In this document: in pieces, positions 6,701 through 24,181 of the stretch
How positions within the stretch are numbered: the stretch's first letter is position 1
How the letters are laid out: every line of letters begins with the position of its first letter
Assembly: GCA_902785055.1 (NCBI GenBank)
Contig: CACZXG010000017.1
Coordinates: forward strand, 1-33,332
Reading direction: 5' to 3'
DNA length: 33,332 nucleotides
Source of the DNA: an uncultured Lachnospiraceae bacterium
GTDB lineage: Bacteria > Bacillota > Clostridia > Lachnospirales > Lachnospiraceae
Made by a program: the position numbers and the translations under genes
Notes under the pieces: model-generated
The model's input: the letters and a program-made list of their open reading frames with translations, nothing else
Databases searched by the model: none
Told to the model about the DNA's origin: nothing

Positions 6701-8574
6701 TCGGCGAGATGATTGGAAATGCCACTGCAGGAAGAAATGCCGAGATGGGCAAACTCTGGAAAACTCTTCAGCCAGATGTGCAGGATGCGAAGACTCTTAT
6801 GGATCAGTACTCCAATCTTGGAGAACAGGCACCGCAGTCATTCTATGACTCCTACTGGCACGCAATGGAAGTCGGTGCGGCAGCGGGTGATTCTGGTGCG
6901 GCGATGGAACTCGCAGCGAAACAACTTGTAGGGGATGAATCTAAGCAGGCCTTAAAGAACGCGATCATGGACGGTACAGCCAATGTCCCACAGGATTTCA
7001 AAGAGGCAGTCGAGAGAGCTGCTGTTGCAGCTTCCGAAGATCCCCCTACATTTGAAGGAGTCCGGGGAAAAATAGAAAGCATGGAAGTTGAATTCGACGA
7101 GGCAAATGTCCAGAGAATCCTCGCTGACACCGTGCAGGGAATATCAGCCACTGGCCAACAGATTGAGGTTAACGCAGGTGAGGTCGGCGTGGAGTATGAA
7201 ATCACCACAGAACCCATTTCAGCCGGAGACCTCGCAGAGAAACTTGGAAAATCGGTTGATGAGGCTTTTGCAAATCAGCCGGAGATCACCGCAGACACAG
7301 AATTACAGGTTGGAACAAAGATAGTCGTATCGGAGTCCGGCATCACTGTTGAGACTGGGAATACCGGTGTAGCGGTCGAAGAGGCGAAGTCGCAGATCGC
7401 TGCAGAGGCCGAAGGGGCTGCCTCAGATCCGATAGAAGTGGAGCAGGCAGTCAACACGACAACAGTCGCTGGAGAGACAGATACCTCTGCTACACAGGAA
7501 GCAGTGGAGCTTGCGGCGGCGGATCCTGTGGATCAGACAGTACCGGTCAACGCCAAGTATGAAATAGCCTCTACGGACGCATCCCAGCTGGGCGAAGCGG
7601 TCAGCTCAGCGTTGCAGACGCAGGAGGCGGCAGAGATCACTATACCTGCAAATGTTACAATTACTGCCGGCACGGTAGTCGCAGAGGAGGCTTTGTCGGC
7701 TGCACAGTCCGCGATTACATCCAGCTTTGGCAGCACATTCGAAGCCGCCGGGCAGGTCAATGTCACCCTGACCAAGGCAAGCGACAATATCGATGCTGTT
7801 TACAATCAGGTTGGAAGCGAGATCAATTCCAAATTCTCGCATGACTACCATACGACCGCAAATCTTCACGTGAGCATTCATGTGGATTACAGTATTGCCA
7901 ACCCTACTAAGACTGTCACATTCAGCGGTGCCGGCAGTGGCTCCGGAACCATCCATGCCCACGCGCTCGGTGGTTATTTTGACGAGCCCCATATCGGCCT
8001 TGTGGCTGAAGCAGGTGCCGAGTACATTATCCCGATGAACGGGAGCAACCGCAGTATTGAGATGTGGAGAGATGCCGGTGAGATGCTGGGTGTCAATCTC
8101 CAGGACTATTTTGGCCGGGCGGTGGCCAACGGCTCCAATCCTTTTGAGGAGCCCTATGTCATACCGCATGCAGACGGAGGGATCTTTGACGAACCTCACC
8201 TGGGGCTTGTGGCCGAGGCTGGTCCGGAAGCGGCGATCCCGCTCGATGGTTCTGACCGTTCTCTCGGATTATGGGAGCAGGCAGGAGCCGCCCTGGGAGC
8301 TCTCCCTCGCCCTCAGTTGCCCGCTGGCTTTGGGGCCGGAGGATTTACTGCCCCTGGGCAGCCCTCCCTTCCTGCGGCCTCTCAGGCGCCTTCAGGAAGC
8401 AATGAGAAAACCATCAATATCAACATTGGCGGGAACGGCACCCTCCGTGTGACGGACGGAAGCGTGGACAAGGAAGCGGTCGTCGAAATGATGATGGACA
8501 ACTTCAAGGATGTCTTCATGCAGATCGTAGAGCAGGAAATCGTAGAAGAAGGAGAGGGGGTATACGTGTACTGA
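3742..8574 (+). CDS. Phage tail tape measure protein (TP901 core type)
   Basis: This 1610-residue protein starts at GTG 3742 behind a GGGAGGTGAGG ribosome binding site. The N-terminus is a long Ala/Ser-rich helical region (DNQAS/VANTAKQVSSQMQ style). Residues about 185-460 form the TP901 tape measure core, with EYTHMMAEVAAISGATG, LSYAQSNSNTTAQQLGEAY and NQGTKGSRAGTQMAA. A hydrophobic segment lies near residues 610-640 (AGAAAVVGAITAVGLAW). The C-terminus carries two copies of a GG(Y/I)FDEPH(I/L)GLVAEAG motif (about 7969-8060 and 8173-8265), typical of tape measure tails. It scaffolds tail tube length and is ejected at infection. At roughly 0.15 nm per residue it would imply a tail of about 240 nm, an inference from the known scaling. 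Confidence 0.95.
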   Translation: MADIQTTLRLNDQASNVLQKVANTAKQVSSQMQATGNAIDRAFTSSAPSSFASQAGNAIQSVEGQAASLGMAVDRIFEEPNTSGFLAEAEAGFGSASAGAEELAGAAETAGNAIDEAASAAEGLGNSTDGMGDNNGLDELGNDARGAGAEMDSASEKAFSLGEAVKKMALAIGAVKIANGFKNFVQESIGIGTEYTHMMAEVAAISGATGDEYAMLQQTARDYGASTIFTATESAEALKYMSLAGWSAQQSAEGLPGVLNLAAASGMELGAASDMVTDYLTAFGMEAGQATYMADMLSYAQSNSNTTAQQLGEAYLNSAAAMHSAGQDIETTTAMMEAMANQGTKGSRAGTQMAAIVRDITQKMETYSTAADLAKASSSGLSSVTGDMNDLLGASAIQIGNMLVPVSDAKGNFRDLTDIMTDVETSLTGLGTAEASAALMNTFTDRSVRGVRQILTEGMENVAEYEDRLRHSAGAAQDASDKMNDNLAGDTAMMTSAFQEMQLQVFEGLEGTLRGGTQYLTNTVIPILTDWVPDAAGTIAGGISRIGQALAPMLETVLRNPQAVATAFSSIGTGLAAFGAVNRISSVMSAFDAGNLSGAGGLIGAISKFGGVLTAHPWAAGAAAVVGAITAVGLAWKHYNDQQIEENLAERFGKIELTASQIGELADMTVNADWKLNVDSSLANFQEAGKLAEQARQALTSNDSIEWKARIGLDLSANDIETYKSNIQEYVTSSIKAIEDQSYAMSLSLETMDIRMVDGSSFADKVNEWAAGDVAEAQGLSDQLTQVVQNALEDGIMSVDEQEAINRLQDKMNNILAGWKLAESKARMDMIEDEFGRLSGRDLTVDSFTSLIEKSREARQEAMSAADENRAALYSTLEAAAQREENRNDSRWDTSEAAREEYEAARARGEKTENEYWNARHQIAAAAVNEEAGILASTLELSNNTLDDKYGDQIAKSTASTESAIQRQLANMDSAFKSGNTDNMFNIGEMIGNATAGRNAEMGKLWKTLQPDVQDAKTLMDQYSNLGEQAPQSFYDSYWHAMEVGAAAGDSGAAMELAAKQLVGDESKQALKNAIMDGTANVPQDFKEAVERAAVAASEDPPTFEGVRGKIESMEVEFDEANVQRILADTVQGISATGQQIEVNAGEVGVEYEITTEPISAGDLAEKLGKSVDEAFANQPEITADTELQVGTKIVVSESGITVETGNTGVAVEEAKSQIAAEAEGAASDPIEVEQAVNTTTVAGETDTSATQEAVELAAADPVDQTVPVNAKYEIASTDASQLGEAVSSALQTQEAAEITIPANVTITAGTVVAEEALSAAQSAITSSFGSTFEAAGQVNVTLTKASDNIDAVYNQVGSEINSKFSHDYHTTANLHVSIHVDYSIANPTKTVTFSGAGSGSGTIHAHALGGYFDEPHIGLVAEAGAEYIIPMNGSNRSIEMWRDAGEMLGVNLQDYFGRAVANGSNPFEEPYVIPHADGGIFDEPHLGLVAEAGPEAAIPLDGSDRSLGLWEQAGAALGALPRPQLPAGFGAGGFTAPGQPSLPAASQAPSGSNEKTININIGGNGTLRVTDGSVDKEAVVEMMMDNFKDVFMQIVEQEIVEEGEGVYVY

Positions 8575-8575
8575 T

Positions 8576-9265
8576 ATGGCATATAAGGTATGGCTGAATT
8601 ATGACAACGATAAGCAGAAGTATATATTCCCGGTAACTCCGGAGAAGATCACCTGCTCGGTGAACGGGATTAACACATCAATATCCATCGACAAGCTTGG
8701 TGAGATTTTTCATAAAGGCAGAAGAGAGGCGATCACGGTTTCGTGGTCGTCTTTTTTTCCGGCAAGATACAGTGACCAGTACTGTTCATGCGGCAAGAAG
8801 AATTTCCATTCGCCGAAAGGGTCGCACAGCTGGCTTCTGTGGATGATGCATGTCTCCAACCCTGCGCACCTGGTTGTAACAGGCGGCCCCCTGAACCTAA
8901 ATATGTTTGTCGTCATTAAATCATACAAGGCATATGAGCAGGGAGGTGATGTTGGCTCCATAAACTATACGATTGAAATGAAGGAATACCGGAGTGTATC
9001 CGTGACCAAGATCACCCGTAAGCAAAAGGTGACCAAGACGGTAAAAAAGCGGGTGAACAATACTGTCAACAAGAGGATCTATATAGTGAAAAAAGGTGAC
9101 ACTCTCCGTAAGATCGCCAAGAAATACTACGGACATAAGCATTTATGGAAGAGGATCTACAAGGCGAATCACGACCTGATCCACAAAACAGCAAAGAAGC
9201 ACGGCCACAGGCACAGCCACTATGGTAAATATATCTACCCGGGCTGTAAGTTTGTAATTCCGTAA
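8576..9265 (+). CDS. LysM-domain tail protein (XkdP-like)
   Basis: The 229-residue protein begins one base after the tape measure stop, so the two are translationally coupled. Residues 1-140 form the N-terminal domain seen in XkdP-like tail proteins (FPVTPEKITCSVNGINTS, then SINYTIEMKEYRS). A very basic linker follows (TRKQKVTKTVKKRVNNT). The C-terminal ~60 residues are a LysM domain: IYIVKKGDTLRKIAKKYYGH through IYPGCKFVIP. It is probably a baseplate or tail-tip component that contacts peptidoglycan. Gene order (tape measure, LysM protein, hub) matches PBSX-type contractile phages. Confidence 0.88.
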   Translation: MAYKVWLNYDNDKQKYIFPVTPEKITCSVNGINTSISIDKLGEIFHKGRREAITVSWSSFFPARYSDQYCSCGKKNFHSPKGSHSWLLWMMHVSNPAHLVVTGGPLNLNMFVVIKSYKAYEQGGDVGSINYTIEMKEYRSVSVTKITRKQKVTKTVKKRVNNTVNKRIYIVKKGDTLRKIAKKYYGHKHLWKRIYKANHDLIHKTAKKHGHRHSHYGKYIYPGCKFVIP

Positions 9266-9279
9266 AGGAGCAGGCAGCT

Positions 9280-10266
9280 ATGAATAATCTGACAGTACTC
9301 GTTGGAGGAGGAAACTCATGGTATGACTACTCGAACCTGGTAGAGAAGGTTGTGTGGACAGGCAGAAAGGGCGCAGCCCCCAGGACTGCAACGATCACCT
9401 TTGCGGATTCAGAGGGGTATAAGCTGGACCGCGTCAATGCCAATGTGGCAGCCGGACAGAGAGTCCAAATCTTTGAGGCCGGGAAAGAGATCTTCCGTGG
9501 GCTCCTGATGACAGAAACCATGAACAACAGCAGGAAGCTGGTGGCCAAGGCCTATGACAGCCTGGTTCGCATGACCAATAATAAATCTTCTTTTTCCTAC
9601 AAGAAGAAACGCGCTGACCAGATTTTTGCAGATTGCTGCAAGCAGCTGGGGCTGACGGTCGGCGGGGCGGACAATACCGGCAAGGTCCTGTCAGAGGTCG
9701 CAAAGAGCACCTGCACCTATTGGGACATCGTCCAGGAAGCACTAAGCCAGACCTATAAGGCTACTGGCAGGAGATACTACGTTTACTGTGACAAAGGAAA
9801 GGTGTATCTCAGACGCAGGACTCTGCCGGCCCAGAGCCTCGTCCTGAGCATCTGGTCGAATACCGTTTCTTACGAACGCACTCGGTCAATCTATGAGACC
9901 AGGACCCGGATGAAGGTAGTTACTTCGAAGAACAAGACAAAGAAGACCTGGAAGAACACAGAGCTTGAAAAGAAGATTGGCGTTTTCCAGGAGGTCCAGA
10001 GTGTGGATAAGGACATCACAAAGACAGAGCTGAACCAGATTGTTGAAACATTCAAGAAAGAGAAAGCGGTCGTGAACGTCTCCATGACATGGGAAGGCCT
10101 CGGAGATAATTCGGTGATTGCCGGCGGGGTTGTCCAGATCGCAAATGACCATCTGGGTCTATACAGACAGGCATATGTCGATGAGGATACCCACACATGG
10201 CAGAAGGGCTCTCACACAATGAAGCTGAAACTGAATTTTGCGGCAAACATTGACGCCGCGGGATAA
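9280..10266 (+). CDS. Baseplate hub protein (XkdQ/gpD-like)
   Basis: The 328-residue protein is preceded by an AAAGGAG site at 9264-9270. The N-terminal half (NSWYDYSNLVEKVVWTGRKG, TITFADSEGYKLDRV, then GQRVQIFEAGKEIFRGLL) matches XkdQ/YqbQ proteins, which are structural relatives of the gpD/gp27 trimeric hub. The middle (ADQIFADCCKQLGLTVG and CTYWDIVQEALSQTYKATGRRY) is also typical of the family. It would form the centre of the baseplate beneath the tail tube. It lies between the LysM protein and the DUF2577 protein, as in related phages. Confidence 0.88.
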   Translation: MNNLTVLVGGGNSWYDYSNLVEKVVWTGRKGAAPRTATITFADSEGYKLDRVNANVAAGQRVQIFEAGKEIFRGLLMTETMNNSRKLVAKAYDSLVRMTNNKSSFSYKKKRADQIFADCCKQLGLTVGGADNTGKVLSEVAKSTCTYWDIVQEALSQTYKATGRRYYVYCDKGKVYLRRRTLPAQSLVLSIWSNTVSYERTRSIYETRTRMKVVTSKNKTKKTWKNTELEKKIGVFQEVQSVDKDITKTELNQIVETFKKEKAVVNVSMTWEGLGDNSVIAGGVVQIANDHLGLYRQAYVDEDTHTWQKGSHTMKLKLNFAANIDAAG

Positions 10267-10278
10267 GGAGGTGCAGGC

Positions 10279-10530
10279 TTGGCGACTTCAATTAAAGAGA
10301 TGATACAGGGGATTGCCATGAAGAATATGCCCAACATAGTGATTGGAGCAGTGACCCAGCTGGCACCGTTGCGGGTGACCATGCTGAACGACATGGCGGT
10401 CAATCTGTCTGCGGCATCGCTGACCATCCCCAAGAGGCTTAAACCGCTTGTCCTGGGGAGGCAGTATTATATGCTGTCCTTTGATATGGGAAATTCATGG
10501 TACATGCTCGATGAAGCAGATGAGGTGTGA
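10279..10530 (+). CDS. DUF2577 baseplate protein (XkdR-like)
   Basis: The 83-residue protein starts at TTG 10279, chosen because AAGGAGGTG (10265-10273) is correctly spaced and no ATG is nearby upstream. The sequence MATSIKEMIQGIAMKNMPNI, then APLRVTML and LTIPKRLKPLVLGRQYYMLS, is the small OB-like DUF2577 family. These proteins sit in the baseplate between the hub and DUF2634 protein genes of PBSX-like phages. It is followed after one base by the next gene. Confidence 0.85.
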   Translation: MATSIKEMIQGIAMKNMPNIVIGAVTQLAPLRVTMLNDMAVNLSAASLTIPKRLKPLVLGRQYYMLSFDMGNSWYMLDEADEV

Positions 10531-10531
10531 G

Positions 10532-10963
10532 ATGGCTGATACTACATTGATGAACGAAGAGGATATGCTCTCCGAAGAAGAACTGGAGCAACTGGCGCCG
10601 GTTTATAGGACATATGGGATGGACCATGAACACAACCGGATCCGGGGCATGATTGACGGTGAAGAGGCCTGCCGGCAGGCAATCTGGAAGATCCTGTCCA
10701 CGCGGAGATTTGCCTATTTCCTGTACGACGACCAGTATGGGAGCGATGTTTTCAATAAGATCGGGGATGTTGGTCTGACTCCGGAATACCTGGACGCAGA
10801 TATCCCTGCCATGGTAGAAGACGCACTGACCTACGATGCGCGGGTCACCGGAGTGAGGGATTTTACATATGAGAGGGTCGGACAGGACTCGGTTCATGTG
10901 GCATTCATTGCAGATACAATCTATGGAGAATTGGAAATGGAGGGTGTGCTGACAAATGGTTAG
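10532..10963 (+). CDS. DUF2634 baseplate wedge/sheath-anchor protein (XkdS/gp25-like)
   Basis: I chose ATG 10532 (143 residues) over the in-frame upstream ATG at 10448, which overlaps the DUF2577 gene. The GAGGTGTGAG just before 10532 provides a ribosome binding site. The protein has an acidic N-terminus, then YGMDHEHNRIRGMIDGEEAC and ILSTRRFAYFLYDDQYGSDV, the hallmark of DUF2634/XkdS, which resembles the gp25 lysozyme-like wedge component of contractile tails. It ends eight bases inside the baseplate J gene, implying coupled translation. Confidence 0.87.
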   Translation: MADTTLMNEEDMLSEEELEQLAPVYRTYGMDHEHNRIRGMIDGEEACRQAIWKILSTRRFAYFLYDDQYGSDVFNKIGDVGLTPEYLDADIPAMVEDALTYDARVTGVRDFTYERVGQDSVHVAFIADTIYGELEMEGVLTNG

Positions 10964-12053
10964 AAATATTGAGGATCTTAAACTGGATGAGATCACCGAG
11001 GAAACACTTCTTGAGCAGGCGATTGCCATGGGTGAAGAACTTGGTGTGGATACGAACCAGGGATCTGTTTACCGGGATGCCTGCGATGGGCATGTGACAC
11101 GCACATCGGATTTCTTCGATGATCTGAGCATGGTCGCAGAGATCATCTCCATCAATACTTGTACAGGGGAAATCTTGGATGAACGGCTGGCAGAACAAGG
11201 CATGGCGAGAAATCCTCCCGAGGACACTCCCGCGACCTATTATGTGGAGTTTGTCGGTGCCTCGCCGGAGATTGGCGATCTTGTAAGCTGCGATGACCAT
11301 TTCTTCAACACGGCAAAGGACACCGAAGGCAATTGGGTTATCGTCTCCCAAGAGACCGGCACAGAGATGAATTCCCTTGTGCCCGGCCTGCCGGTCATCC
11401 CGGAGCGTGATGTAGACGATATGATCAGCGCCACTCTCGGTTCTCTGGCTATTCCTGCGGTCGATACAGAGGATGATGACTCGGCCCGGGCCAGGTTTCT
11501 GGAAAAGATCGCCGGGCCCGCTGAAAACGGGAATGCTTCCCAGATTAAATCATGGTGCGAAGGGATTTCAGGAGTTGGCAGGGCGAGGATCATAAAGCTC
11601 TGGGATGGCCCCGGAACCGTGAAGGCAGTCATCACCGCAGTGGACGGGACAGCGCCGTCAGAGGATATTGTTAATCAGGTCCAGGATACCCTCGACCCGG
11701 GCGCATCTGGCTTAGGGGAAGGCCTTGTTACGATAGGGTGCTTCTTTACAGCAGTAGCATCGGTGGAAGTACCTATCAGTCTCTCCGTGGAAGTAACAAA
11801 GACCGCAAACGGTTCCTTCGCCGCCATAAAGGATGACATAGAAGCAGCCTTGAAGGTCTATCTGAAGGGGCTGGCACTTGCGGCCGCAGACGAGACCACT
11901 GTGAGAGTGAATTCTATCGGGTCATTGATCGCGAATGTGTCCGGCGTTGTTGACTACGAAAACCTGCTGGTCAACGGAGGCACAGACAATGTGCCGATCA
12001 GCGTGTATCAGGTTCCGGTTGCCGGGGAGGTGATAGTGGATGGACATATTTAA
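10956..12053 (+). CDS. Baseplate J-like protein (XkdT-like)
   Basis: This 365-residue protein starts at ATG 10956, overlapping the previous gene by 8 bases, with a GGAGGG site in the earlier frame. Features of the baseplate_J/gp47 family include the early helical stretch, TYYVEFVGASPEIGDLVSCD, the RARFLEKIAGPAENGNASQIK segment and GVGRARIIKLWDGPGTVKA. It forms the wedges that link hub and tail fibres in contractile tails. It overlaps the DUF2313 gene by 14 bases, so 10279-13017 reads as one tightly packed operon. Confidence 0.9.
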   Translation: MVRNIEDLKLDEITEETLLEQAIAMGEELGVDTNQGSVYRDACDGHVTRTSDFFDDLSMVAEIISINTCTGEILDERLAEQGMARNPPEDTPATYYVEFVGASPEIGDLVSCDDHFFNTAKDTEGNWVIVSQETGTEMNSLVPGLPVIPERDVDDMISATLGSLAIPAVDTEDDDSARARFLEKIAGPAENGNASQIKSWCEGISGVGRARIIKLWDGPGTVKAVITAVDGTAPSEDIVNQVQDTLDPGASGLGEGLVTIGCFFTAVASVEVPISLSVEVTKTANGSFAAIKDDIEAALKVYLKGLALAAADETTVRVNSIGSLIANVSGVVDYENLLVNGGTDNVPISVYQVPVAGEVIVDGHI

Positions 12054-13017
12054 CAACCGGGAAATCCCCGGATATGAGGAGCTTGTAAGCTACGGGCCAT
12101 CCTGGTGGACGGAATACCGTGAAATGGATGCCATCTACCGTTTTGCCGGCTGGACGCTCGACTTGATGGCCCTGTGGCTCGAAAAGATCGTCCTGAACCA
12201 GTTCCCAATCTACGCAGATGAGGAGACTATAGCCTTGCTGGAAAGAATCCTCGTCCTGGAACCGGAGCCCGGGGACAGCCTTGATGAAAGGCGCAGAACT
12301 GTAGCTGCCTATTATCCAGGAAACGGAAAATTCGGGGCATCGACGATCAAGTCGATCATCAAGGCTTACTCCGGATGCGATTCGGAAATCTGGTGGGAGG
12401 ATAACATTCTCCAGATCCGGATCATTCTTAACGAAGATGCCGTATTCTCGGCACGTAAGATTGAAAACATCGTGCTCCGGAGGCTGCCTGCACATGTAGC
12501 TACATCTTTCCGCGATCTTCTGGTCATTTTTGTACTGACAGAAAACATCACCGAACGGATCACGCTCCGCACCCCAATCAGCGCGTGGCAGGGGCTTTTG
12601 GATGGCAGCAGACTTCTGGACGGAACGTATCTGCTCGATGCAGAGCTGCCGACCAGGATTACTTTTGTTCCAAAACTCACCTTGGCCAACGAGAACAGTT
12701 GGGCATATGCCGTTGCAAACAGGTTCATATCCCGGACATCGGCAGACGAGGGCCTGACTCTGACAGATGTTCATAAAGTCGATGCTGTCTGGTGGGATGC
12801 AGCAAGGCTCCTCGGAGGCTGGGGAGCGCTCAATGGAGAGGGGAACCTTGACGATGTACTCCCGCCCGACATCAACGTAAATGCCTGGCGATATTCTTTG
12901 CCTGACAAAGAAACTGCTGTATTTAACTGGTACGTCCCGGCAGAAGCGGTGCCCCTCACAGGCGCGGTACTGCTGGATGGAAACATTAACCTGAACTCAG
13001 GAAGGGAGGAATTGTAA
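12040..13017 (+). CDS. DUF2313 tail protein (XkdU/YmfQ-like)
   Basis: The protein is 325 residues. Residues 1-170 contain the DUF2313 features YREMDAIYRFAGWTLDLMAL, LERILVLEPEPGDSLDERR and AYYPGNGKFGASTIKSIIKA. This family sits after baseplate J and is a small baseplate/fibre-connector protein of roughly 200 residues. Here a C-terminal extension of about 130 residues (LLDGSRLLDGTYLLDAELPT and later repeats) resembles a fibre-attachment or collar segment. It ends directly before the ATG of the next gene. Confidence 0.83.
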   Translation: MDIFNNREIPGYEELVSYGPSWWTEYREMDAIYRFAGWTLDLMALWLEKIVLNQFPIYADEETIALLERILVLEPEPGDSLDERRRTVAAYYPGNGKFGASTIKSIIKAYSGCDSEIWWEDNILQIRIILNEDAVFSARKIENIVLRRLPAHVATSFRDLLVIFVLTENITERITLRTPISAWQGLLDGSRLLDGTYLLDAELPTRITFVPKLTLANENSWAYAVANRFISRTSADEGLTLTDVHKVDAVWWDAARLLGGWGALNGEGNLDDVLPPDINVNAWRYSLPDKETAVFNWYVPAEAVPLTGAVLLDGNINLNSGREEL

Positions 13018-13401
13018 ATGGCATCAGGAACTGTAGTAACGACCAGGGCAAAGAAGAAAATGCTTCTTGCCCGCGCAGGGGAACAGGCCCTGCCTAAAAT
13101 CGTCGGCATGGCTTTCGGAGATGGAGGAGTGAACAGCAGCGGCACAGTGATCCCGCATTCTGCGGACAGCAATGCCCTGCACCACGAAGTGCTCCGTAAG
13201 ACGGTTGACGGCCATGAGGTCATCAGCGACACAAAAGTCAGATATCGCTGCACAATTGGCGCCAATGAACTGAGCAACACCTATATCTCCGAATGCGGCA
13301 TCTATGATGCGGATGGGGATTTCGTGGCGCTGAAAGCCTTCATGCAGAAGGGGAAAGATGCGGATATGGAAGTTATCTTTGAGTGTGACGATACCTTCTG
13401 A
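13018..13401 (+). CDS. Tail fibre/collar-type protein
   Basis: The 127-residue protein starts immediately after the previous stop with AAGGGAGGAATTG upstream. The motif MAFGDGGVNSSGTVI and the ISECGIYDADGDFVALKAF stretch are typical of the N-terminal domain of phage tail-collar fibre proteins (DUF3751-like), which attach fibres to the baseplate. It is short compared with full fibres, so receptor binding is probably left to the following DGR-diversified protein. Confidence 0.75.
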   Translation: MASGTVVTTRAKKKMLLARAGEQALPKIVGMAFGDGGVNSSGTVIPHSADSNALHHEVLRKTVDGHEVISDTKVRYRCTIGANELSNTYISECGIYDADGDFVALKAFMQKGKDADMEVIFECDDTF

Positions 13402-13423
13402 CACCGCTTTCTTTTGCACATAG

Positions 13424-13446
13424 AATAACGGATATTGTTATTTTTT
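13424..13446 (+). terminator. Weak stem-loop with T-run before the DGR target gene
   Basis: AATAAC (13424-13429) pairs with GTTATT (13437-13442) and six T residues follow from 13441. It is AT-rich and weak, perhaps an attenuator separating the baseplate operon from the DGR target gene. The 95-base gap is the largest in the tail module, so the next gene may have its own promoter; I see no convincing -35/-10 pair. Confidence 0.4.
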
Positions 13447-13496
13447 AACCTTTTTACACAAATCATAGTATTGGAAATATCATACGGGAGGAAATA

Positions 13497-15182
13497 ATGT
13501 CGAATTTTGATACTTCCGGGGCATCGTTCAATGCAAACCTGCGGATGCTTGAAACATCGGATCCGTGTCATGCAGATACGTTCAATGCCCTCTTTGCCCA
13601 GCTGATCAACAATGATGTTGCCATCCAGAAAGCTGCCGGCGGCTTTGCTGCAGATAAGAATGCTCAGGCAAAATTTCTGCTGGACATGCGCAGAACCGGA
13701 AAGAAGTACGGTGTCCATTGGGACGCCTTTGATATCAACCCTTCATCGATCGGGACCAGGCTGTATGACAATGTCGGTAAGGTGTGCGAGCCCTCGACCA
13801 ATACCGTTCAGGGTAGGAACGATCTCGAAGGGGAGTCGGTCTTTTTTCATCTGGAGGTAAACGGCTATGTCGATGAGGATGGCGAATTCCAGGTTCAGTA
13901 CATCCGTGGGGTCGACAATGAGTTCTCACGGACAGAGCGCGATGTATGGTGCCTGTTCCTGACACAGTGGATTAAGATCGAGATCACAGCAACAGGAGAA
14001 AACCTGATTTTGTCCGACATGGCGCATGAGGGATTTTTCCCGGAGGGAGGTGCAATCAGACCGGACGGGACCATCCGCCCTTATGTAGCTATCGCCAAGT
14101 ACCAGGATTCTTCAGAGTCTTCTGGAACGCCCAATTCCGTCAGCGGCTTCAACCCGAGTTACAACAACTCACACAACAGCATCATCACAAAGTTCCACAG
14201 AAAAGGGAGCCAGTACTGTGGAACAACAGCGCAGGACTGGCAGCGGATGACGAACCTCTTCGATATCGCCTTTGCGACAAGAGACAGCCAGAGCATTATG
14301 CGTGGAGCTACCGGGTACTATCTTCAGTATCCCGCAACCGTAGAGGAGGCGGACGTCGAGAGAATTATCATTGCAAAGTCTCAGGCGGCCAATCTCCTGG
14401 TTGGTTCCTGTGTATCGATCGGAAATGCAACTACTCTTAACGGAGACCATACCGCTGGCAATATCGACGGAGGACAGGCTGGCATGCATGCGAAAGCCAA
14501 CAGAGTCCTGATCACGAAGATTGAGGATTATGACGACAATAATGCTGCTGTATATGTTGACAATGGCGGAAGTGCATTTTCAACAGCAAAAACTGTTGTT
14601 GACAATATTGACTGCCCGACATACATCTCGACGATGCCCTGGTACACCGGCGCGTGTGATGATGTCCTCGGAAGCTGCGGATCGCCCAGCAGTAACTCAT
14701 CCGGCAAAGAACCCTACATCCTGTTTGGCGTAGAGCTGGCGCTTGGCCAGTATGAAGTATGCTCTAATACGATCATGAACATCGTCGATGGCGTAATGCG
14801 GCCGTACATTTGCTACGACTGTACAAAGCTGTCCGCAAGCGCACCCACGGCAGATTACGAGGCAGTGGCATATACGCTTGCCCTGACGGACAATGCCTGG
14901 AAGTATATCTCAGTGCTTGGCTATGACCCGGACAATCCAATGGTGAGACATGGAACGGAAGTGAATGCTACCTCCTCGACTGGATATGCAGATTGCCAGA
15001 ATACAGGAAGCGTCGATGAAACGACGAACGCGAAGCGTGAGGTCCTGCTCGGCGGCTACCTGGGCACCGGGGCTCGCGCCGGGCGCCGCTCCGCGTACCT
15101 GAACTTTTCGCTGTCGATCGCGGGCTGGGGCTATGCCGCGCGCCTTTCTGCTTCTGGACGCTGCGCTCAAAGCGCAGCGTAA
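13497..15182 (+). CDS. DGR target protein: tail fibre/receptor-binding protein with variable C-type lectin-like C-terminus
   Basis: The 561-residue protein starts at ATG 13497 with GGGAGGAAA upstream. The first ~500 residues do not match a family I can name but read as a tail-fibre-like beta-rich protein (FDTSGASFNANLRMLETSDP at the start). The C-terminus is the DGR variable region: LLGGYLGTGARAGRRSAYL to WGYAARLSA, residues 516-553, matching the conserved G-G...AGRR...W.YAAR frame of DGR C-type lectin-fold (formylglycine-enzyme-like) domains. Variable residues by comparison with the template are Y521, G523, T524, R527, S532, Y534, N536 (unchanged), F537, I541, G543, G545, L550, A552 and S553. 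The scaffold residues between them are invariant. The likely role is host receptor binding at the tail tip. Confidence 0.93.
   Translation: MSNFDTSGASFNANLRMLETSDPCHADTFNALFAQLINNDVAIQKAAGGFAADKNAQAKFLLDMRRTGKKYGVHWDAFDINPSSIGTRLYDNVGKVCEPSTNTVQGRNDLEGESVFFHLEVNGYVDEDGEFQVQYIRGVDNEFSRTERDVWCLFLTQWIKIEITATGENLILSDMAHEGFFPEGGAIRPDGTIRPYVAIAKYQDSSESSGTPNSVSGFNPSYNNSHNSIITKFHRKGSQYCGTTAQDWQRMTNLFDIAFATRDSQSIMRGATGYYLQYPATVEEADVERIIIAKSQAANLLVGSCVSIGNATTLNGDHTAGNIDGGQAGMHAKANRVLITKIEDYDDNNAAVYVDNGGSAFSTAKTVVDNIDCPTYISTMPWYTGACDDVLGSCGSPSSNSSGKEPYILFGVELALGQYEVCSNTIMNIVDGVMRPYICYDCTKLSASAPTADYEAVAYTLALTDNAWKYISVLGYDPDNPMVRHGTEVNATSSTGYADCQNTGSVDETTNAKREVLLGGYLGTGARAGRRSAYLNFSLSIAGWGYAARLSASGRCAQSAA
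15042..15155 (+). repeat. DGR variable region (VR)
   Basis: This 114-base segment aligns without gaps to the template at 15290-15403 (offset 248). It differs at 21 positions, every one an adenine in the template; the other 86 template bases are all conserved. Substitutions go to G, C and T alike. The identical GC-rich run TATGCCGCGCGC (15132-15143) is the best candidate for the initiation-of-mutagenic-homing sequence, although adenine-only differences continue beyond it. Confidence 0.95.
15158..15180 (+). promoter_or_regulatory. DGR homing hairpin/cruciform downstream of VR
   Basis: A perfect 10-bp GC-rich inverted repeat with a three-base loop: ACGCTGCGCT (15158-15167), CAA, AGCGCAGCGT (15171-15180). 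It begins three bases after the VR and lies inside the last codons and stop of the target gene. In the Bordetella phage DGR a GC-rich hairpin of similar stem length just downstream of VR is needed for efficient retrohoming. Position and form match here; function is inferred. There is no T-run, so it is not an ordinary terminator. Confidence 0.82.
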
Positions 15183-15289
15183 GGGGGTGAATGGCCGCCC
15201 CGAGGGCGGTCAGAGGGGATCTCCCCTATGAAACTATTACCCGCGAAGCGGGTCGAATTTTATAAGGACTCATGACACTGTCGGCTTGT
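15183..15289 (+). ncRNA. Structured spacer between DGR target gene and template repeat
   Basis: About 107 bases without a gene hold three further stem-loops: CCGCCC/GGGCGG (15195-15209, loop CGA), AGGGG/CCCCT (15213-15226, loop ATCT) and ACCCGC/GCGGGT (15239-15253, loop GAA). They lie immediately 5' of the template repeat and may be part of the DGR transcript or shield it from translation. Some could equally act as gene-end signals; none has a T-run. Confidence 0.5.
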
Positions 15290-15403
15290 GTCCTGCTCGG
15301 CGGCAACCTGAACAACGGGGCTAACGCCGGGCGCCGCTACGCGAACCTGAACAATTCGCTGTCGAACGCGAACTGGAACTATGCCGCGCGCAATTCTGAA
15401 TAA
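15290..15403 (+). repeat. DGR template repeat (TR)
   Basis: The TR lies between target gene and reverse transcriptase, in the same orientation. Read in the VR frame it encodes GGNLNNGANAGRRYANLNNS, then LSNANWNYAARNSE and a stop, with 11 AAY codons. AAY codons are the typical DGR substrate because adenine mutagenesis of them gives many amino acids but never a stop. It contains 28 adenines. It has no start codon of its own and is presumably transcribed as the RNA template for mutagenic reverse transcription. Confidence 0.95.
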
Positions 15404-15579
15404 TGTGTGTCATGTTTCGCTCCCTGGAGGAGCCTCATAAAGAGCTTGGGCGGAATGCCCGAAATTGATGAACCAGCATCGGGGAAGGGGATGACCCGGA
15501 TCCGGCCCTGCGGCGGAGTGGACGCAGGTGGGGGCTAGTAGTATACCCGAAAACCCTTGAATTCAGAAAGAAACTTATT
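15404..15579 (+). ncRNA. Candidate structured DGR RNA region between TR and reverse transcriptase
   Basis: About 176 bases without an open frame. Visible stems are GCTCC/GGAGC (15419-15433), TTGGGC/GCCCGA (15446-15462, one G-U pair) and CCTGCG/CGCAGG (15507-15528). It is GC-rich and starts directly after the TR. In the Bordetella system the RNA downstream of TR primes cDNA synthesis and binds reverse transcriptase and Avd, so I infer an equivalent role. No gene for an Avd protein lies here, and the reverse transcriptase start at 15580 lacks a strong ribosome binding site (AGAAAG only). Confidence 0.5.
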
Positions 15580-16953
15580 ATGAAAACCTACTGCAAAAAC
15601 CTTGATCTGACCGACGATGCATTTATTTACGAAGCAGTGTTTGACTACCTGCACGATAAGGTCCGGAAACGGTCTACTGTCCGGTTCATTTCCGGATATA
15701 CAGGATACAGTGAATCTTATGTTCGTCAGACACTGATCGGAGAGAAGAGAGAGGAAGGCGATGGCAAAGACAGATTCTTAAAGTCTGTCTGCACCAGGAT
15801 CTCAAAGGAAATGTCGGAGCATATCCGATACCGGACAGTACGGGAACACATTATGCAGAGATGTTATGGCGAAAAGGTCATAAGATACCTGGAAATTACG
15901 GACGTTGGAAGTAAGAAGCGGAGAGACCTTGGCCTCGAGGCAACAATTTTTCGCCTATATGAAGCAGTAGCGAACGAAGCTGCTCTCCCACTATTTCGTG
16001 CAAAAGTGGGAGAGTACCAGATTGGTAGCATCAAAGGAAAGGGTCAGGCATACGGCCGGAAAGCAATTCTTCGATGGATGAGCCGGGATCCGGAAGGGAC
16101 TAAATACGGGATTCAGGCAGATATGTCAAAATGCTACCCAAGCATCCCGCATGACAAGTTGCAGGCAATGTATCACAGAGATCTGCATAAATCCCATGAC
16201 CTCCTGTATCTTCTCGACACATTCCTGTCTCTTTACGAAGAATATCCGAACCCGAAGGCTTTGGATCCGTGCAAGGGTATCCTTATCGGATCCCCGATAT
16301 CCAAAGATTTGTGTAACTACTATGTCAGCAGATTGTACCATTATGCCTCGGAGGATCTGTATGTCGAAAAGAAACGACGAGGACAAGTACAGAGAATCAG
16401 GATGCTGGCGCACATCATCATCTACGCGGATGACATTCTTCTGTTTGGGCAAAACAAGAAATTGCTGCAGAAGAGTATGGATCTGATAATGAAGTATGCC
16501 AAAGACCAGCTTGGCATGACCGTCAAACCGGACTGGGTTAAATTCCGTACCCAATATAGCAGAGAGGGAGGGACCATATCCGGCCGTGTAATTGATTTCA
16601 TCGGCCTCCAGTTTCATGGAGGTGAGATTAAGGAAAAATACTACTTTAACAGGAGGACCAGGTACAGGAGAACACGGGTCACAATCCGTGGAAGGACATT
16701 TATCAAAGCCAGAAGAAAGCTGTCTCGCTTTACCAGAATGGTGAAACGAAGGACTGTAGTCACAGAGAAGTTCGCCAAAAGCGTTATCTCATATTACGGA
16801 TGTTTTACAACCACGGATTCCGCTACCTTCCGAAAAAAGAATAAGGTTGATCAGATAATGCGGATCGTGAGGCGGATTATCAGCGACTACGCGAAAGGAA
16901 AAGCATACGATCAAACCAAATACTACAATATGTGGAGGAGCAGAATAGCATGA
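15580..16953 (+). CDS. DGR reverse transcriptase
   Basis: The 457-residue protein carries the reverse transcriptase fold: SIKGKGQ at residues 150-156, the first catalytic Asp in QADMSKCYPSIPH (D181), and YADD at 282-285 (D284, D285). Motif 4 reads LIGSPISKDLCN (235-246), where most DGR enzymes have (I/V/L)GxxxSQ. An N-terminal region of about 140 residues and a basic C-terminal thumb (RTRYRRTRVTIRGRTFIKAR) extend the core. Its position directly behind a TR, with A-specific VR changes, identifies it as the mutagenic retrohoming enzyme. No Avd gene flanks it, so either the enzyme's own extensions or an unrecognised partner must replace Avd. The next gene overlaps its stop (ATGA). Confidence 0.92.
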   Translation: MKTYCKNLDLTDDAFIYEAVFDYLHDKVRKRSTVRFISGYTGYSESYVRQTLIGEKREEGDGKDRFLKSVCTRISKEMSEHIRYRTVREHIMQRCYGEKVIRYLEITDVGSKKRRDLGLEATIFRLYEAVANEAALPLFRAKVGEYQIGSIKGKGQAYGRKAILRWMSRDPEGTKYGIQADMSKCYPSIPHDKLQAMYHRDLHKSHDLLYLLDTFLSLYEEYPNPKALDPCKGILIGSPISKDLCNYYVSRLYHYASEDLYVEKKRRGQVQRIRMLAHIIIYADDILLFGQNKKLLQKSMDLIMKYAKDQLGMTVKPDWVKFRTQYSREGGTISGRVIDFIGLQFHGGEIKEKYYFNRRTRYRRTRVTIRGRTFIKARRKLSRFTRMVKRRTVVTEKFAKSVISYYGCFTTTDSATFRKKNKVDQIMRIVRRIISDYAKGKAYDQTKYYNMWRSRIA

Positions 16954-17615
16954 ATATTGTTAACAGCCCTGAGCCGCTTGAAAATGTGGCATATAAGATT
17001 GGAACCGACGGGATGGCCAATGTATGGATCCGGCAGGAAGCGTCCAGCCAGGAAACAGAAGAAGGCTACATAGCTGAGGAAGTCTACTTCAAGGTAACGC
17101 CTTCGGTTATCTCCAAGGAAGAAATACTGGCAGATTCCGGATTCTTCTTTACGGCAATGTGTGATGAGAAGCCCGGAAGCATGGCGGATCATCTGCAGCT
17201 GGAAGCGGTCCGGAAAGCAAAGAGGGATCAGATATCCGCTGCGTGCCAGGCAATAATCTTTGCAGGCATCGATGTTGAACTGAGTGAAGGGGTGCAGCAC
17301 TTCAGCCTGACCGAGACTGATCAGATCAATCTTTTCGGGAAAATGGCACAGCTCCAGTCGGGGGCAGAGAGGCTTGAGTATCACAGCGACGGAGCGCCCT
17401 GCTGTTTCTACAGCGCAGCTGACATGGCAAAAATCTGCGCGGAAGCAACAAAGTATGTCTCATTGATGACGACAATCTGTAACAGTCTTTTTGTGTGGCT
17501 GGCAAACTGCACAACACGAGGAGAAATTGCCGGTATCGAATGGGGCGCCGAGATTCCGGATGACTATAAGAGCGAGGTCCTTAAAGCATACCTTGCGGCA
17601 GATGCGGCAGAATGA
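16950..17615 (+). CDS. DUF4376-like phage tail/fibre-associated protein
   Basis: I chose ATG 16950 (221 residues) because GGAGGAG at 16934-16940 is well spaced and the ATG overlaps the reverse transcriptase stop as ATGA; an in-frame ATG at 16932 has no such site. The C-terminal half (ACQAIIFAGIDVELSEGVQH, FSLTETDQINLFGKMAQL and YHSDGAPCCFYSAADMAKIC) resembles DUF4376 proteins found downstream of tail fibres. They are often regarded as fibre-associated or assembly factors, and biochemical function is unknown. Overlap with the next gene (ATGA) suggests one transcript from the DGR to 18210. Confidence 0.65.
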   Translation: MNIVNSPEPLENVAYKIGTDGMANVWIRQEASSQETEEGYIAEEVYFKVTPSVISKEEILADSGFFFTAMCDEKPGSMADHLQLEAVRKAKRDQISAACQAIIFAGIDVELSEGVQHFSLTETDQINLFGKMAQLQSGAERLEYHSDGAPCCFYSAADMAKICAEATKYVSLMTTICNSLFVWLANCTTRGEIAGIEWGAEIPDDYKSEVLKAYLAADAAE

Positions 17616-18055
17616 GAGCGGTTCTTAAGAATGCTGTCCTCTGGGGGATTGGAGGCTTGCTATATTGCCTTCTGGAAGTGTTATTTCGAAGCAGGACACA
17701 CTGGAGCATGATGATTGTCGGAGGGGTTTGCTTCTTACTCTGCGGGATGATAAACGAGTATTATCCATGGGATATGCCCATGTTGGAGCAAATGACACTA
17801 AGCGCCATAGTTATCACCTCCATTGAATTCTGTTCCGGCGTTGTACTCAATCTTTGGTGCAAACTAAACGTGTGGGACTATAGCAATATCCCCATGAATC
17901 TGTTTGGCCAGATCTGCGCCCCTTTTGCAGCGGCCTGGTTTATCCTGAGCGGGGCAGCAATCGTGTTGGATGATTATCTGCGGTACTGGCTTTTCGAAGA
18001 AGAAAAGCCGCAGTACCAGTGGAGGGGAAAATGGATTCTTCCGAAGAAAAACTAA
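17612..18055 (+). CDS. Multispanning membrane protein (putative ABC-transporter type IV / DUF1113-like)
   Basis: The 147-residue protein starts in an ATGA overlap with the preceding gene. About four hydrophobic segments are visible (WGIGGLLYCLLEVLF, MMIVGGVCFLLCGMI, SAIVITSIEFCSGVVLNLW and ICAPFAAAWFILSGAAIVL). The ITSIEFCSGVVLNLWCKLNV and WDYSNIPMNLFGQICAPFA motifs match the family annotated as putative ABC-transporter type IV permease. Its occurrence just upstream of a lysis cassette suggests an accessory role at the membrane, for instance holin-like or exclusion; that is inference. Confidence 0.7.
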   Translation: MRAVLKNAVLWGIGGLLYCLLEVLFRSRTHWSMMIVGGVCFLLCGMINEYYPWDMPMLEQMTLSAIVITSIEFCSGVVLNLWCKLNVWDYSNIPMNLFGQICAPFAAAWFILSGAAIVLDDYLRYWLFEEEKPQYQWRGKWILPKKN

Positions 18056-18210
18056 AACAAGAACTCGAAGAAGTTACAAGCCTTTTAAAAACCTACATGA
18101 TTCTTTGCGACGAGCAATCGACTACCATTGAAACGATGGCAAAGGTAATCCATCAGCAGTCGATGAGGATCAGGGAGATGCAAGAAGTCCACGGTTTTAT
18201 CGATATGTGA
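18031..18210 (+). CDS. Small coiled-coil phage protein
   Basis: The 59-residue protein starts at ATG 18031 behind GGAGGGG (18021-18027), inside the end of the membrane protein gene. It is a single charged amphipathic helix (KLKQELEEVTSLLKTYMI, then TIETMAKVIHQQSMRIREMQ). I do not recognise the family. It is the last gene before a strong terminator, hence the end of the late tail operon. Confidence 0.6.
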   Translation: MDSSEEKLKQELEEVTSLLKTYMILCDEQSTTIETMAKVIHQQSMRIREMQEVHGFIDM

Positions 18211-18226
18211 ATTAAGGCGATAGAAG

Positions 18227-18248
18227 AGACCCGACAGGGTCTTTTTTT
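18227..18248 (+). terminator. Rho-independent terminator after tail/DGR operon
   Basis: AGACCC (18227-18232), loop GACA, GGGTCT (18237-18242), followed by a T-run. It separates the tail/DGR operon from the lysis genes. Confidence 0.88.
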
Positions 18249-18276
18249 ATTGCCGATTATTGAAAGGAGGAAATAA

Positions 18277-20031
18277 GTGGCAACGAAATGCACAGTATGG
18301 GACGTGCTGACGGCTGCGGCGAAATATGATGGATCCCCGACTGCACATGCAGATGTCGTGAAAACACTGATTGCCAAAGGGCATAGTGTGAAAATGACTG
18401 ATGCATGGTGCACTGAGGCCGTAATGGCAATCCTCTATAATGCCGGGGGAATCAGCCTTGTTGGCGGATTTACGCAGACTTCCGGCACCCTGAAGTCCCG
18501 TGCAGAGAAACTTGGTATCTGGAAAAAAGGGTCCGGAGACATCTTGCCAGGAGATATCGTTATCTATGGCACGAAGGAAGGTAAGCCCAACCATACAGAA
18601 CTGGCTTTGGGATCCAATGTGAACCTGTGCGGTAACTACGCCCAGATTAGCAAGGATACCTGCCAGCGCCGGAAGAGATCTGGAAGGACTATCATCGGCC
18701 GCGTGCGTCCGAAGTATGCCGCCATGTCCACAATGGACAACCTGCAGCGTACCATTGCTGCAGTAGACTGTATGCTCAATGTGTATGGGTCGAGCGACAC
18801 GAGGAAGAAGCAGCTTTCTGTCTTCGGCAGTAAGAACATTGCCTCTATCCAGGCAGAGGTCGACCGCGTATGGGGGAAAGAAGATCTCATTGCCCGTGAC
18901 ATGGCTGTTTACGTGATTGCTGGTCGTGCAGGGAAAGACCCTTACCGAAAGACCCGTCTCGGCAAGTACGCAGATAAGGCACAGGCAAGAGTTGAGCTTA
19001 TCTATGCCATGCGGGGCAAGACCGTCACGCAGGCCGCCAAGGATGTGATCAATGACAATTATGGAAAAGGCGCGGTCAGGGAACTGCTGTTGTCCTTCTG
19101 CAGGTATGATGCGAAAAAGGTACAGGCAGAGGTCAATAGGCTTCTGCAGCCGGCAGGACACACCAATACCGATACAAAATTCCGCATTCACATGGAGCAT
19201 TTCTGCCGAAAAGATGAATCCGCATATGGCGCATGTACGGCACTCCTGCAGTACGCTCCGGACGGTTCTGTGGCCAAGTGTGTCCTGATTGACACGGCCA
19301 TGGACAAGACCGCCAATGTCGTGATCGAGGACCTCAAAGCCCAGGGAGTGAAGCAGATAGATGCACTCTTTATCAGTCACGCTCACGGAGATCACTATGG
19401 TGGTCTCACAAAGGTAGCAAACGCTTTCCCAGTTAAATGGCTCTATCTTCCGGATCCGACAGAATTGGATAAGTACCAGAAGAGTTACGGGGACTCCCTC
19501 CGGAGACAGGCGAGGAAGGTCAAAAACTTTCGATGGTACAAACAGGGCGACGCTGCTGTAATCGGCGAGATCAAGTTCCGTTGCCTCTATGCTCCGAAGG
19601 CGAAAGACCTGAGAGAACATGACCCACATCACTACGTCAACAACATGAGTCCGTTCAACTACTTCGAGTGCGGCTCCTTTGTTTGGCACACGGCCGGCGA
19701 TGCACAGAACCCTGCGAACAATCTTTTTGTTTCATACGCTAAAAAAGAAGGAATCAGCATAAAATGCCACGGGCTGGAATTCCATTGGCACACGGACGGA
19801 AATGCCACCAATGACGAACTGATGCAGGCGACCCGTCCGAGGATCTGTGGATCCAACTACCATCATCCGGGATGGCACTCCGGTCGTAAAGGACCGAAGA
19901 AAATGGCAGAGGCCGTGGGTGCCACCTGCTACGCTACAGCCGATGATGGGCACATTGATATCGATATTGCCGGAAGGAAAGTCACTGTCACGACAACGAA
20001 ATCCGGCAAGCATGATACTTATACAATTTAA
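18277..20031 (+). CDS. CHAP-like amidase fused to metallo-beta-lactamase-fold hydrolase (lysis-associated)
   Basis: The 584-residue protein starts at GTG 18277 behind AAAGGAGGAAA. Residues 1-150 are CHAP/NlpC-like: DAWCTEAVM with candidate nucleophile C45, GDIVIYGTKEGKPNHTELAL with H106. Residues about 155-295 hold two helical repeats of the kind linking lysin domains (LNVYGSSDTRKKQLSVFGS; later GAVRELLLSFCRYDAKKVQAEV). Residues about 310-584 are a ComEC-like metallo-beta-lactamase domain: FISHAHGDHYGG (H368, H370, D372, H373), WHTAGDAQN (D475) and SNYHHPGWHSG (H529/H530) complete a two-metal site. It lies directly before holin and endolysin. A peptidoglycan hydrolase joined to this fold is unusual; the lactamase part might cleave teichoic-acid phosphoesters, as pneumococcal Pce/CbpE does, or nucleic acid. 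The substrate is unknown. Confidence 0.82.
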   Translation: MATKCTVWDVLTAAAKYDGSPTAHADVVKTLIAKGHSVKMTDAWCTEAVMAILYNAGGISLVGGFTQTSGTLKSRAEKLGIWKKGSGDILPGDIVIYGTKEGKPNHTELALGSNVNLCGNYAQISKDTCQRRKRSGRTIIGRVRPKYAAMSTMDNLQRTIAAVDCMLNVYGSSDTRKKQLSVFGSKNIASIQAEVDRVWGKEDLIARDMAVYVIAGRAGKDPYRKTRLGKYADKAQARVELIYAMRGKTVTQAAKDVINDNYGKGAVRELLLSFCRYDAKKVQAEVNRLLQPAGHTNTDTKFRIHMEHFCRKDESAYGACTALLQYAPDGSVAKCVLIDTAMDKTANVVIEDLKAQGVKQIDALFISHAHGDHYGGLTKVANAFPVKWLYLPDPTELDKYQKSYGDSLRRQARKVKNFRWYKQGDAAVIGEIKFRCLYAPKAKDLREHDPHHYVNNMSPFNYFECGSFVWHTAGDAQNPANNLFVSYAKKEGISIKCHGLEFHWHTDGNATNDELMQATRPRICGSNYHHPGWHSGRKGPKKMAEAVGATCYATADDGHIDIDIAGRKVTVTTTKSGKHDTYTI

Positions 20032-20046
20032 GGAGGATATAACAGC

Positions 20047-21965: not shown

Positions 21966-21973
21966 GCTATGTA

Positions 21974-22015
21974 CCCCCCTGGACTTACCATACCGGTTGG
22001 CCCAGGGGGTTCTTT
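21974..22015 (+). terminator. Rho-independent terminator of the lysis cassette
   Basis: CCCCCTGG (21975-21982) pairs with CCAGGGGG (22002-22009) across a 19-base loop, followed by TTCTTTTG. It closes the late lysis transcript. Confidence 0.85.
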
Positions 22016-22116
22016 TGTTTGTGCAGAAGTGCGTTCATATCAAGAAACGATATTTTATAACATTATTCCTTCCGATACTTCAAATCGCGCTACAATCAAA
22101 CGGAAGGAGCAATGGC

Positions 22117-22344: not shown

Positions 22345-22392
22345 TCCTGCACACGCAGCAGATACCGCTGCAACGGTATGGACAATGGCAAG

Positions 22393-22416
22393 AAAGAGGC
22401 TTAGCGCCTCTTTTTT
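22393..22416. terminator. Bidirectional terminator
   Basis: AGAGGC (22395-22400), loop TTAGC, GCCTCT (22406-22411), with A residues on the left and T residues on the right, so it can end both the HTH gene (+) and the cyclotransferase operon (-). The TAA stop of the reverse-strand gene lies in the loop. Confidence 0.88.
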
Positions 22417-22868: not shown

Positions 22869-22885
22869 TGATATCCTCCTTATTC

Positions 22886-23092: not shown

Positions 23093-23107
23093 TGTTTCCT
23101 CTTTTCT

Positions 23108-24055: not shown

Positions 24056-24135
24056 TTCAGCTTGTCCTTTCTGTGGTTGTTATGTCCAGGGATTCGTCAG
24101 TTCCCGAACGGCTGTTTGTGTTTTCTGTTGTGTAT

Positions 24136-24163: not shown

Positions 24164-24181
24164 TGGTTTTTCCAAAAATAA

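Follow-up and report, generated by a model that had tools for sequence, protein, structure and literature searches.

How far does a diversity-generating retroelement (DGR) depend on the glutamine of the SQ motif of its reverse transcriptase (RT) if its changes are to stay confined to adenines? The question is raised by a stretch of 33,332 nucleotides from an uncultured Lachnospiraceae bacterium (GenBank assembly GCA_902785055.1, contig CACZXG010000017.1, positions 1 to 33,332; the whole stretch is called the window below), in which a putative phage tail gene ends in a variable repeat (VR) and is followed by a template repeat (TR) and by an RT gene with lysine in place of that glutamine. Our analysis indicates with high confidence that this is the DGR of a phage lineage of gut Clostridia that has contractile tails and is probably temperate. 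It is an ordinary DGR in kind, and unusual in its SK motif with adenine specificity kept and in a conserved RNA domain in the spacer between TR and RT. Its features are as follows.

13497–15182, + strand: target gene of the DGR, an open reading frame (ORF) of 561 amino acids for a putative tail protein; the VR lies at the 3' end of the gene
15042–15143, + strand: mutable zone of the VR, with 22 positions that are adenine in the TR, 15 of them changed, and 80 others, unchanged
15144–15155, + strand: 3' end of the VR, the likely counterpart of the initiation of mutagenic homing (IMH) site; VR CTTTCTGCTTCT versus TR AATTCTGAATAA, the VR side being near-invariant in relatives
15158–15180, + strand: hairpin directly 3' of the VR, with a perfect 10-bp stem and a 3-nt loop, CAA
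15183–15192, + strand: GGGGGTGAAT, directly after the target stop codon and invariant in the 12 loci compared
15290–15403, + strand: TR, with 15290–15391 as counterpart of the mutable zone
15404–15579, + strand: structured RNA in the TR–RT spacer (covariance match 15400–15580), with 37 base pairs in seven helices
15580–16953, + strand: DGR reverse transcriptase, 457 amino acids, with IGSPISKD as motif 4 and YADD as active site

Adenine-only divergence of the template and variable repeats

Over their 114 aligned nucleotides (offset 248), VR and TR differ at 21 of the 28 TR adenines and at none of the 86 other bases, the adenine being replaced by T in eight cases, G in seven and C in six. The initial annotation of this DNA had reported the same counts, with changes to G, C and T, and the order target, VR, hairpin, TR and RT on the + strand; the recount agreed with it to the base, and the order was recovered from the ORFs and a repeat search, which paired 15042–15150 with 15290–15398 (109 nt, 84%). 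When the VR was used as a query against the window's own metagenome-assembled genome (MAG), the two matches were the VR and the TR. The chance that 21 random mismatches would all fall on 28 adenines among 114 positions is 2.8e-17, and that for the 102-nt mutable zone (15 on 22 adenines) is 4.9e-13, the boundaries of the region having been set in both cases after the data were seen. A chance repeat is ruled out by these probabilities together with the confinement of the divergence to adenines. It also seems extremely improbable that the pair is a gene end duplicated in the ordinary way and driven apart by selection on the tail tip, with no mutagenic retrohoming. Repeats in tail genes do arise by duplication, but none of the 86 non-adenine bases is changed, no ORF of at least 60 amino acids overlaps the TR, and A-biased TR/VR pairs accompany the RT in 90 of 114 RT-bearing loci (one contig counted twice).

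Six of the 21 differences fall in the last 12 positions, 15144–15155. In 11 of 12 related loci the VR side of this end reads CTTTCTGC, and in the remaining one, L065, ATTTCTGC; a longer form, CTTTCTGCTTCTGG, is shared by six of the 12, while the TR-side counterpart differs and is often A-rich. Mutagenesis as the source of all 21 changes is therefore ruled out, and because the VR-side end is near-invariant in relatives the mutable zone was limited to 15042–15143, where 15 of 22 TR adenines and 0 of 80 other positions are changed. The six end differences would mainly reflect the difference between IMH and TR, rather than products of mutation. One of them, position 15152, is T, A, C or G among relatives; standing third in an alanine codon, it may have changed by drift or by mutation.

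The variable codons of the mutable zone comprise ten AAY and two TAY codons, so that no change of an adenine can create a stop codon; by arithmetic they allow 15^10 x 4^2, or about 9e12, protein variants. The hairpin beyond the VR, the final base of which is the first base of the target stop codon, is stable as a DNA fold (z -4.7; 0 of 200 shuffles equally stable), and with RNA parameters its energy is at or below -17.0 kcal/mol in 10 of the 12 loci, the hairpins of L067 and L065 being weaker. Covariation of its stem in a fixed-column alignment is weak (77.5% paired; 27 of 500 shuffles as high), and the VR-end alignment folded, as a consensus, into long-range pairings that are for the most part invariant and include a single two-sided pair; this structure was not used. 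By anatomy, the locus has the VR-specific 3' end, unlike that of the TR, and the downstream hairpin of a DGR, in addition to adenine-confined changes, an adjacent RT of the DGR lineage and a protein-coding target that holds the VR in its 3' end.

A reverse transcriptase with lysine at the SQ glutamine

The RT gene, which begins 176 nt downstream of the TR, encodes a protein that matches PF00078 at 47.5 bits and, by profile comparison, the RT (bRT) of Bordetella phage BPP-1 (99.2% probability over 258 columns). In this comparison, as in alignments with relatives, Lys242 (codon 16303–16305) occupies the usual place of Gln. The AlphaFold model of the RT has a predicted local distance difference test score (pLDDT) of 87.5. 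In a Foldseek search with it, the DGR RT 8ub7 ranked sixth by E-value, after five group II intron RT chains, and had the highest template modelling (TM) score by target length, 0.77, among the 50 matches listed. The protein sits among RTs whose loci carry A-biased TR/VR pairs; a comparison with plasmids returned one record, a partial match.

DGR RTs typically have (I/V/L)GxxxSQ in domain 4, and the SQ dipeptide has been proposed to help restrict errors to adenines (DiGReF; PMC3521204). The same paper describes variants in 15 of 155 DGRs (SP, SH, NQ, PA, AQ and VQ) with adenine exchanges kept, and so treats SQ as typical, not obligatory; SK is absent from this list. Another survey took motif variants as probable inactivation or sequencing errors (PMC4244168). 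No mention of an SK motif was found in the literature searched, partly seen and with most subscription journals outside it.

In a tree of 109 RTs, built by a quick method with a midpoint root, the 12 lysine-bearing RTs that include that of the window form one group, here the K clade, with full support (100 in the Shimodaira–Hasegawa-like approximate likelihood ratio test, SH-aLRT). The related loci and contigs carry L numbers in our analysis; L039, L062, L082, L089 and L097 were omitted from the tree and L003 was not in its input. A separate lysine (L076) and the residues Leu, Ile, Met, Cys and Pro are placed elsewhere, and the glutamine label requires seven changes on the tree, at least six of which are forced by starred branches. 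The counts below, arranged by the residue at this position, come from a pair finder that penalises non-adenine mismatches and drops pairs with more than one non-adenine change per four adenine changes, and therefore lean, as do those by clade, towards adenine-only purity.

Gln: TR adenines changed 985/1532, other bases 41/5151; pairs in 63/82 loci
Lys: TR adenines changed 237/375, other bases 4/1192; pairs in 14/15 loci (the contig of L039 and L064 counted twice)
Leu: TR adenines changed 64/114, other bases 5/425; pairs in 5/5 loci
Pro: TR adenines changed 71/124, other bases 4/349; pairs in 4/6 loci
Ile: TR adenines changed 39/55, other bases 0/153; pairs in 2/2 loci
Cys: TR adenines changed 14/28, other bases 0/91; pair in 1/1 locus
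Met: no pair found in the single locus
No readable motif: pair in 1/2 loci

The finder returned no pair in 24 of the 114 loci, in several of which the RT lies near a contig end. Since lysine stands at the Gln position and adenine-only divergence is kept, the Gln of the SQ motif seems dispensable, on these sequence comparisons, for adenine specificity and for its targeting. A whole clade has Lys at this position, and Leu, Ile, Pro or Cys occur there in other RTs; A-biased pairs persist alongside these residues, and for Lys, Leu and Pro related loci also diverge in their VRs at TR adenines. The cause of adenine specificity thereby becomes testable with natural enzymes.

Diversification in related loci

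Among the mutable zones of 12 K-clade loci, 159 of 273 TR adenines are changed, against 3 of 940 other positions. Of the relatives in this RT clade, L063 and L064 are IMG/VR contigs from different data sets with identical TRs and 99.56% identity over 3,867 bp (17 mismatches); 14 of the 17 are at VR sites that are adenine in the TR, and none is at the 81 other VR sites. The TRs of L003 and L059, whose RTs are 78% and 79% identical to that of the window, are likewise identical, and in this pair (98.1% identity over 7.2 kb) the VR differs at 12 of 26 adenines and at 0 of 85 other positions. A scan for loci with TRs at most 6% apart gave 16 pairs, with motif residue Gln in ten, Lys in two, Leu in three and Pro in one; VR differences occur at TR adenines in 16/16 and at one or two other sites in 4/16. 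These pairs are not independent, their flank identity ranges from 76 to 99.8%, and L039 (the same contig as L064) and L062 (the same as L003) were omitted, L003 itself not being in the input. In L039, at 4572–6201, the target gene is split between two frames.

That near-identical relatives differ in the VR at TR adenines only supports activity of the DGR lineage, as seen by sequence in relatives of the same clade rather than in the window phage itself. The initial annotation had described the element as recently active, a view that would have suffered from a lack of variation in every related genome; the VRs of relatives do vary, at TR adenines. Activity is supported for relatives of the same RT clade; in the window the TR/VR pair alone cannot date the changes, and six of the 21 counted lie in the near-fixed VR end.

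A covarying RNA between the template repeat and the reverse transcriptase

When the window is compared with L037 or L038, DNA identity is detected in the TR and the spacer and not in the RT gene. RNAalifold applied to 11 spacers gave a structure of 37 pairs, 18 of them with two-sided changes. In a covariation count on the same 11 sequences from which that structure was derived, 94.3% of cells were paired and 0 of 500 shuffles scored as high on any measure; slid controls reached at most 52%. A covariance model built from these spacers and run on 62 sources (609 kb) returned 34 matches at E <=1, 13 of them in the K clade (11 being the training sequences) and 21 outside it, where 49 of the 62 sources lie. 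Seventeen of those 21 have E <0.01, several being near-copies of each other, and all are on the + strand of the RT; the four first-model matches at E 0.04 to 1 are individually weak. An automatic position check put 13 of the 17 at -30 to +120 nt relative to a Met codon among the first three in the RT frame, and the remaining four (L044, L084, L085 and L086) stop 3 to 22 nt short of the point where the tblastn match to the RT begins. In an alignment of 27 sequences, itself fitted to the model, two-sided changes occur in 32 of the 37 pairs.

With a second covariance model, 81 other sources yielded 21 matches at E <=1, of which seven, including one near-copy of a training sequence (L108), were below 0.01 and the fourteen at 0.02 to 1 are individually weak. 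The position check was passed by 17 of the 21. The exceptions are L045, where the annotated RT start lies within the last bases of the match, its near-copies L121 and L124, and L127, where the match ends 107 nt before the tblastn RT match.

Against Rfam at E <=10, the sole match of the window spacer is RT-18 (RF03021), which lies in the 3' part of the spacer, at the corresponding place and on the corresponding strand. Its score of 18.9 bits (E 0.77) is below the gathering score of 41.3 bits, so the window RNA does not qualify as a member of the family; a wider stretch of the window had no Rfam match at E <=1. At gathering level, RT-18 adjoins the RT start in 7 of 13 RT-bearing loci scanned (L113, L046, L149, L114, L144, L130 and L006). 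In a second Rfam set it was present in two of six (L046 and L113, both among the seven) and not in L003, L066, L071 or L090. From these sequence matches we infer that RT-18 and the spacer RNA represent a single kind of element. All seven RTs next to RT-18 have the SQ motif, and the finder gave a TR/VR pair in five of these loci (not in L046 or L144); RT-18 may therefore be the 3' domain of DGR template RNAs, for the recognition of which the covarying spacer RNA would provide a model.

The target gene and its carrier phage

The target gene is located 3' of baseplate and tail-fibre genes. Its best PHROG match is phrog_17147 (534 bits), of unknown function, followed by the tail protein family phrog_5302 (51 bits); its other PHROG matches are weak and fall in tail and unknown families. 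The first of 135 matches of its predicted model in the Protein Data Bank (PDB) is the DGR variable protein TaqVP, at an E of 0.02 that is not significant, none being at or below 0.001; the sequence itself had no match among solved structures, and comparison with the Mtd profile gave no significant match. A C-type-lectin fold is common, not universal, among DGR targets. The position after tail genes, together with analogy, makes a receptor-binding role at the tail tip likely. The initial annotation had gone further, stating that the phage diversifies its receptor-binding tip; the baseplate and tail-fibre neighbours and the weak tail-protein PHROG match speak for this, and the poor structural model of the target does not.

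The tail genes form one module.

2978–13401, + strand: PBSX-like contractile-tail module, with an XkdN-like chaperone (below the Pfam cut-off), tape measure, LysM protein, YQBQ, sheath initiator, Baseplate_J, Gp48 and tail-collar fibre

The XkdN-like protein found no relative in viral contigs. A sheath gene is present in five of seven records of relatives, two of the five being whole MAGs; none was matched in the window's MAG, which is 87% complete. L066 and L067 sit in larger viral contigs with such a gene. On the contig of L037 and L066 the sheath lies about 12.5–13 kb upstream of the target, which by arithmetic corresponds to about 0.5–1 kb in the window; there the window instead has TsaB and a protein that is PBP4B-like in its C-terminal and glycosidase-like in its N-terminal part, by matches under the cut-offs. 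These two genes, in 1–2977, directly precede the phage tail gene. Of the 61 other genomes of the assigned genus, 60 have a TsaB match, with 29–39% identity in the best-match rows, much as in the class at large (29–42% among the matches listed), and the PBP4B/glycosidase-like protein has no full-length match in 20 relatives. The sign of the GC skew flips near 3000, and short GC-rich, partly palindromic repeats of the GCGAAGC type lie between tsaB and the first tail gene (2811–2977). The left 2.8 kb of the window looks foreign to the genus, which may reflect misbinning of the contig, a deletion or a chimeric assembly.

On the other side of the DGR, 18277–20031 encodes a protein in which a CW_7 cell-wall repeat precedes a metallo-beta-lactamase-fold domain and which has PHROG matches to endolysins. 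Genes for a GGACT/AIG2-like gamma-glutamyl cyclotransferase and an amidoligase stand side by side on the minus strand (22401–22868 and 23108–24055) and are kept in the phage contig L003, with 93.7% DNA identity over 21967–24666. Homology to L003 stops at 24666, after which L003 has a putative integrase-like ORF, identified by reading. At 25802–33332 the window encodes a 340-residue protein with a weak MobV-relaxase match and then an ORF of more than 2,000 residues, which runs off the window and which we take, from its sequence, to resemble a Gram-positive surface adhesin.

Weighing the evidence

Several observations weigh against an intact and working DGR of the proposed kind. Domain 4 of the RT reads IGSPISK and not the canonical motif, and the nearest NCBIfam model to the RT is the group II intron RT (56.6 bits against a cut-off of 300). 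The model of the target is poor (pLDDT 55). The window spacer taken alone folds no better than its shuffles (z -0.30), so that the case for the RNA rests on covariation and on the matches elsewhere. A 39-nt degenerate TR/VR pattern found no further variants of the window pair in viral contigs. L035 and L036, the two contigs that come closest to the window over the target gene (97% and 93%), break off at the VR or shortly ahead of it (at 4797 and 9518, respectively), as is common in assemblies at repeats or variable sites; the evidence from these ends is weak. Finally, no Avd model is among the Pfam matches of 20 window ORFs. Avd, an accessory protein, is found in many, not all, DGRs. PF05635, tried as the Avd model, matched none of eight records, nor any of ten further ones including BPP-1, and is therefore the wrong model; the BPP-1 Avd matches PF22296 (bAvd), which hit one of 20 records, the BPP-1 control, and missed DGR records of SQ type too, so that the Avd test is insensitive.

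With a foreign-looking left flank and a MAG in which no sheath was matched, the window falls short of showing an intact phage, and the DGR might be a formerly active one, now a fossil with a frozen VR in the tail remnant of a defective prophage. It adds to this that no window ORF matches the putative integrase-like ORF of L003. We consider such a fossil unlikely: the RT frame is intact, all TR/VR differences are on adenines with the 80 other positions of the mutable zone unchanged, relatives of the same clade diversify, and the missing head genes may be an effect of assembly or binning. An artefact of assembly, in the contig or in the TR/VR pair, is scarcely credible. The MAG consists of 196 contigs, the left 2.8 kb of the window looks foreign and related contigs break at the VR, but L003 is collinear with the window over 8785–20034 (87% identity) and carries a TR and a VR of its own in matching places, and any chimera junction would lie near 2811–2977, far from the DGR.

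The reading that we consider very probable is a DGR of a phage lineage, which would work as follows. An RNA spanning the TR and its structured 3' domain (about 180 nt) would be transcribed; the RT would bind the RNA domain and make a cDNA of the TR, with misincorporation at template adenines; this cDNA would then take the place of the VR at the target's 3' end. The near-fixed VR end (15144–15155) and the hairpin would presumably mark the target and spare the TR from being overwritten. The initial identification as a DGR is borne out by the adenine-only TR/VR divergence, the homology of the RT to bRT, the hairpin after the VR and relatives with the same anatomy. As to its description as complete, no Avd was recognised by the insensitive test, and a complete phage is not evident on the contig.

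Comparison with known systems

One close known counterpart is the DGR of Bordetella phage BPP-1 (mtd/avd/TR/brt), with which the window shares a TR–VR cassette, a VR in a tail gene and a homologous RT of its own. An inverted repeat after the VR is also present in BPP-1 and has a role there (PMC3240598). Unlike BPP-1, the window has an RT of 457 rather than 328 residues, lysine at the SQ glutamine and no recognisable Avd; its hairpin loop is CAA, of 3 nt, in contrast to the 5'-GRNA loop consensus; and its target has no significant profile match to Mtd. BPP-1, scanned with both covariance models (R1 and R2), had no match at E <=1. A more speculative view, tentative at best, is that this gut phage lineage runs an adenine-specific DGR with neither the SQ glutamine nor Avd, in which a lysine RT, extended in its N-terminal region, and an enlarged structured 3' RNA domain, a divergent RNA of RT-18 type, would jointly replace the Avd and spacer of BPP-1.

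The DGR of Butyrivibrio phage Arawn (MN882550) likewise has VR, TR and RT in this order on one strand, with 9 of 24 TR adenines and no other bases changed; its RT, unlike that of the window, has the canonical LGNYTSQW, and it aligns to 46% of the window RT at 29.9% identity. Finally, like the RT-18 RNA (RF03021), its sole Rfam match, the window spacer RNA adjoins the start of an RT; unlike RT-18, it scores below the gathering threshold of that family and has further covarying 5' helices.

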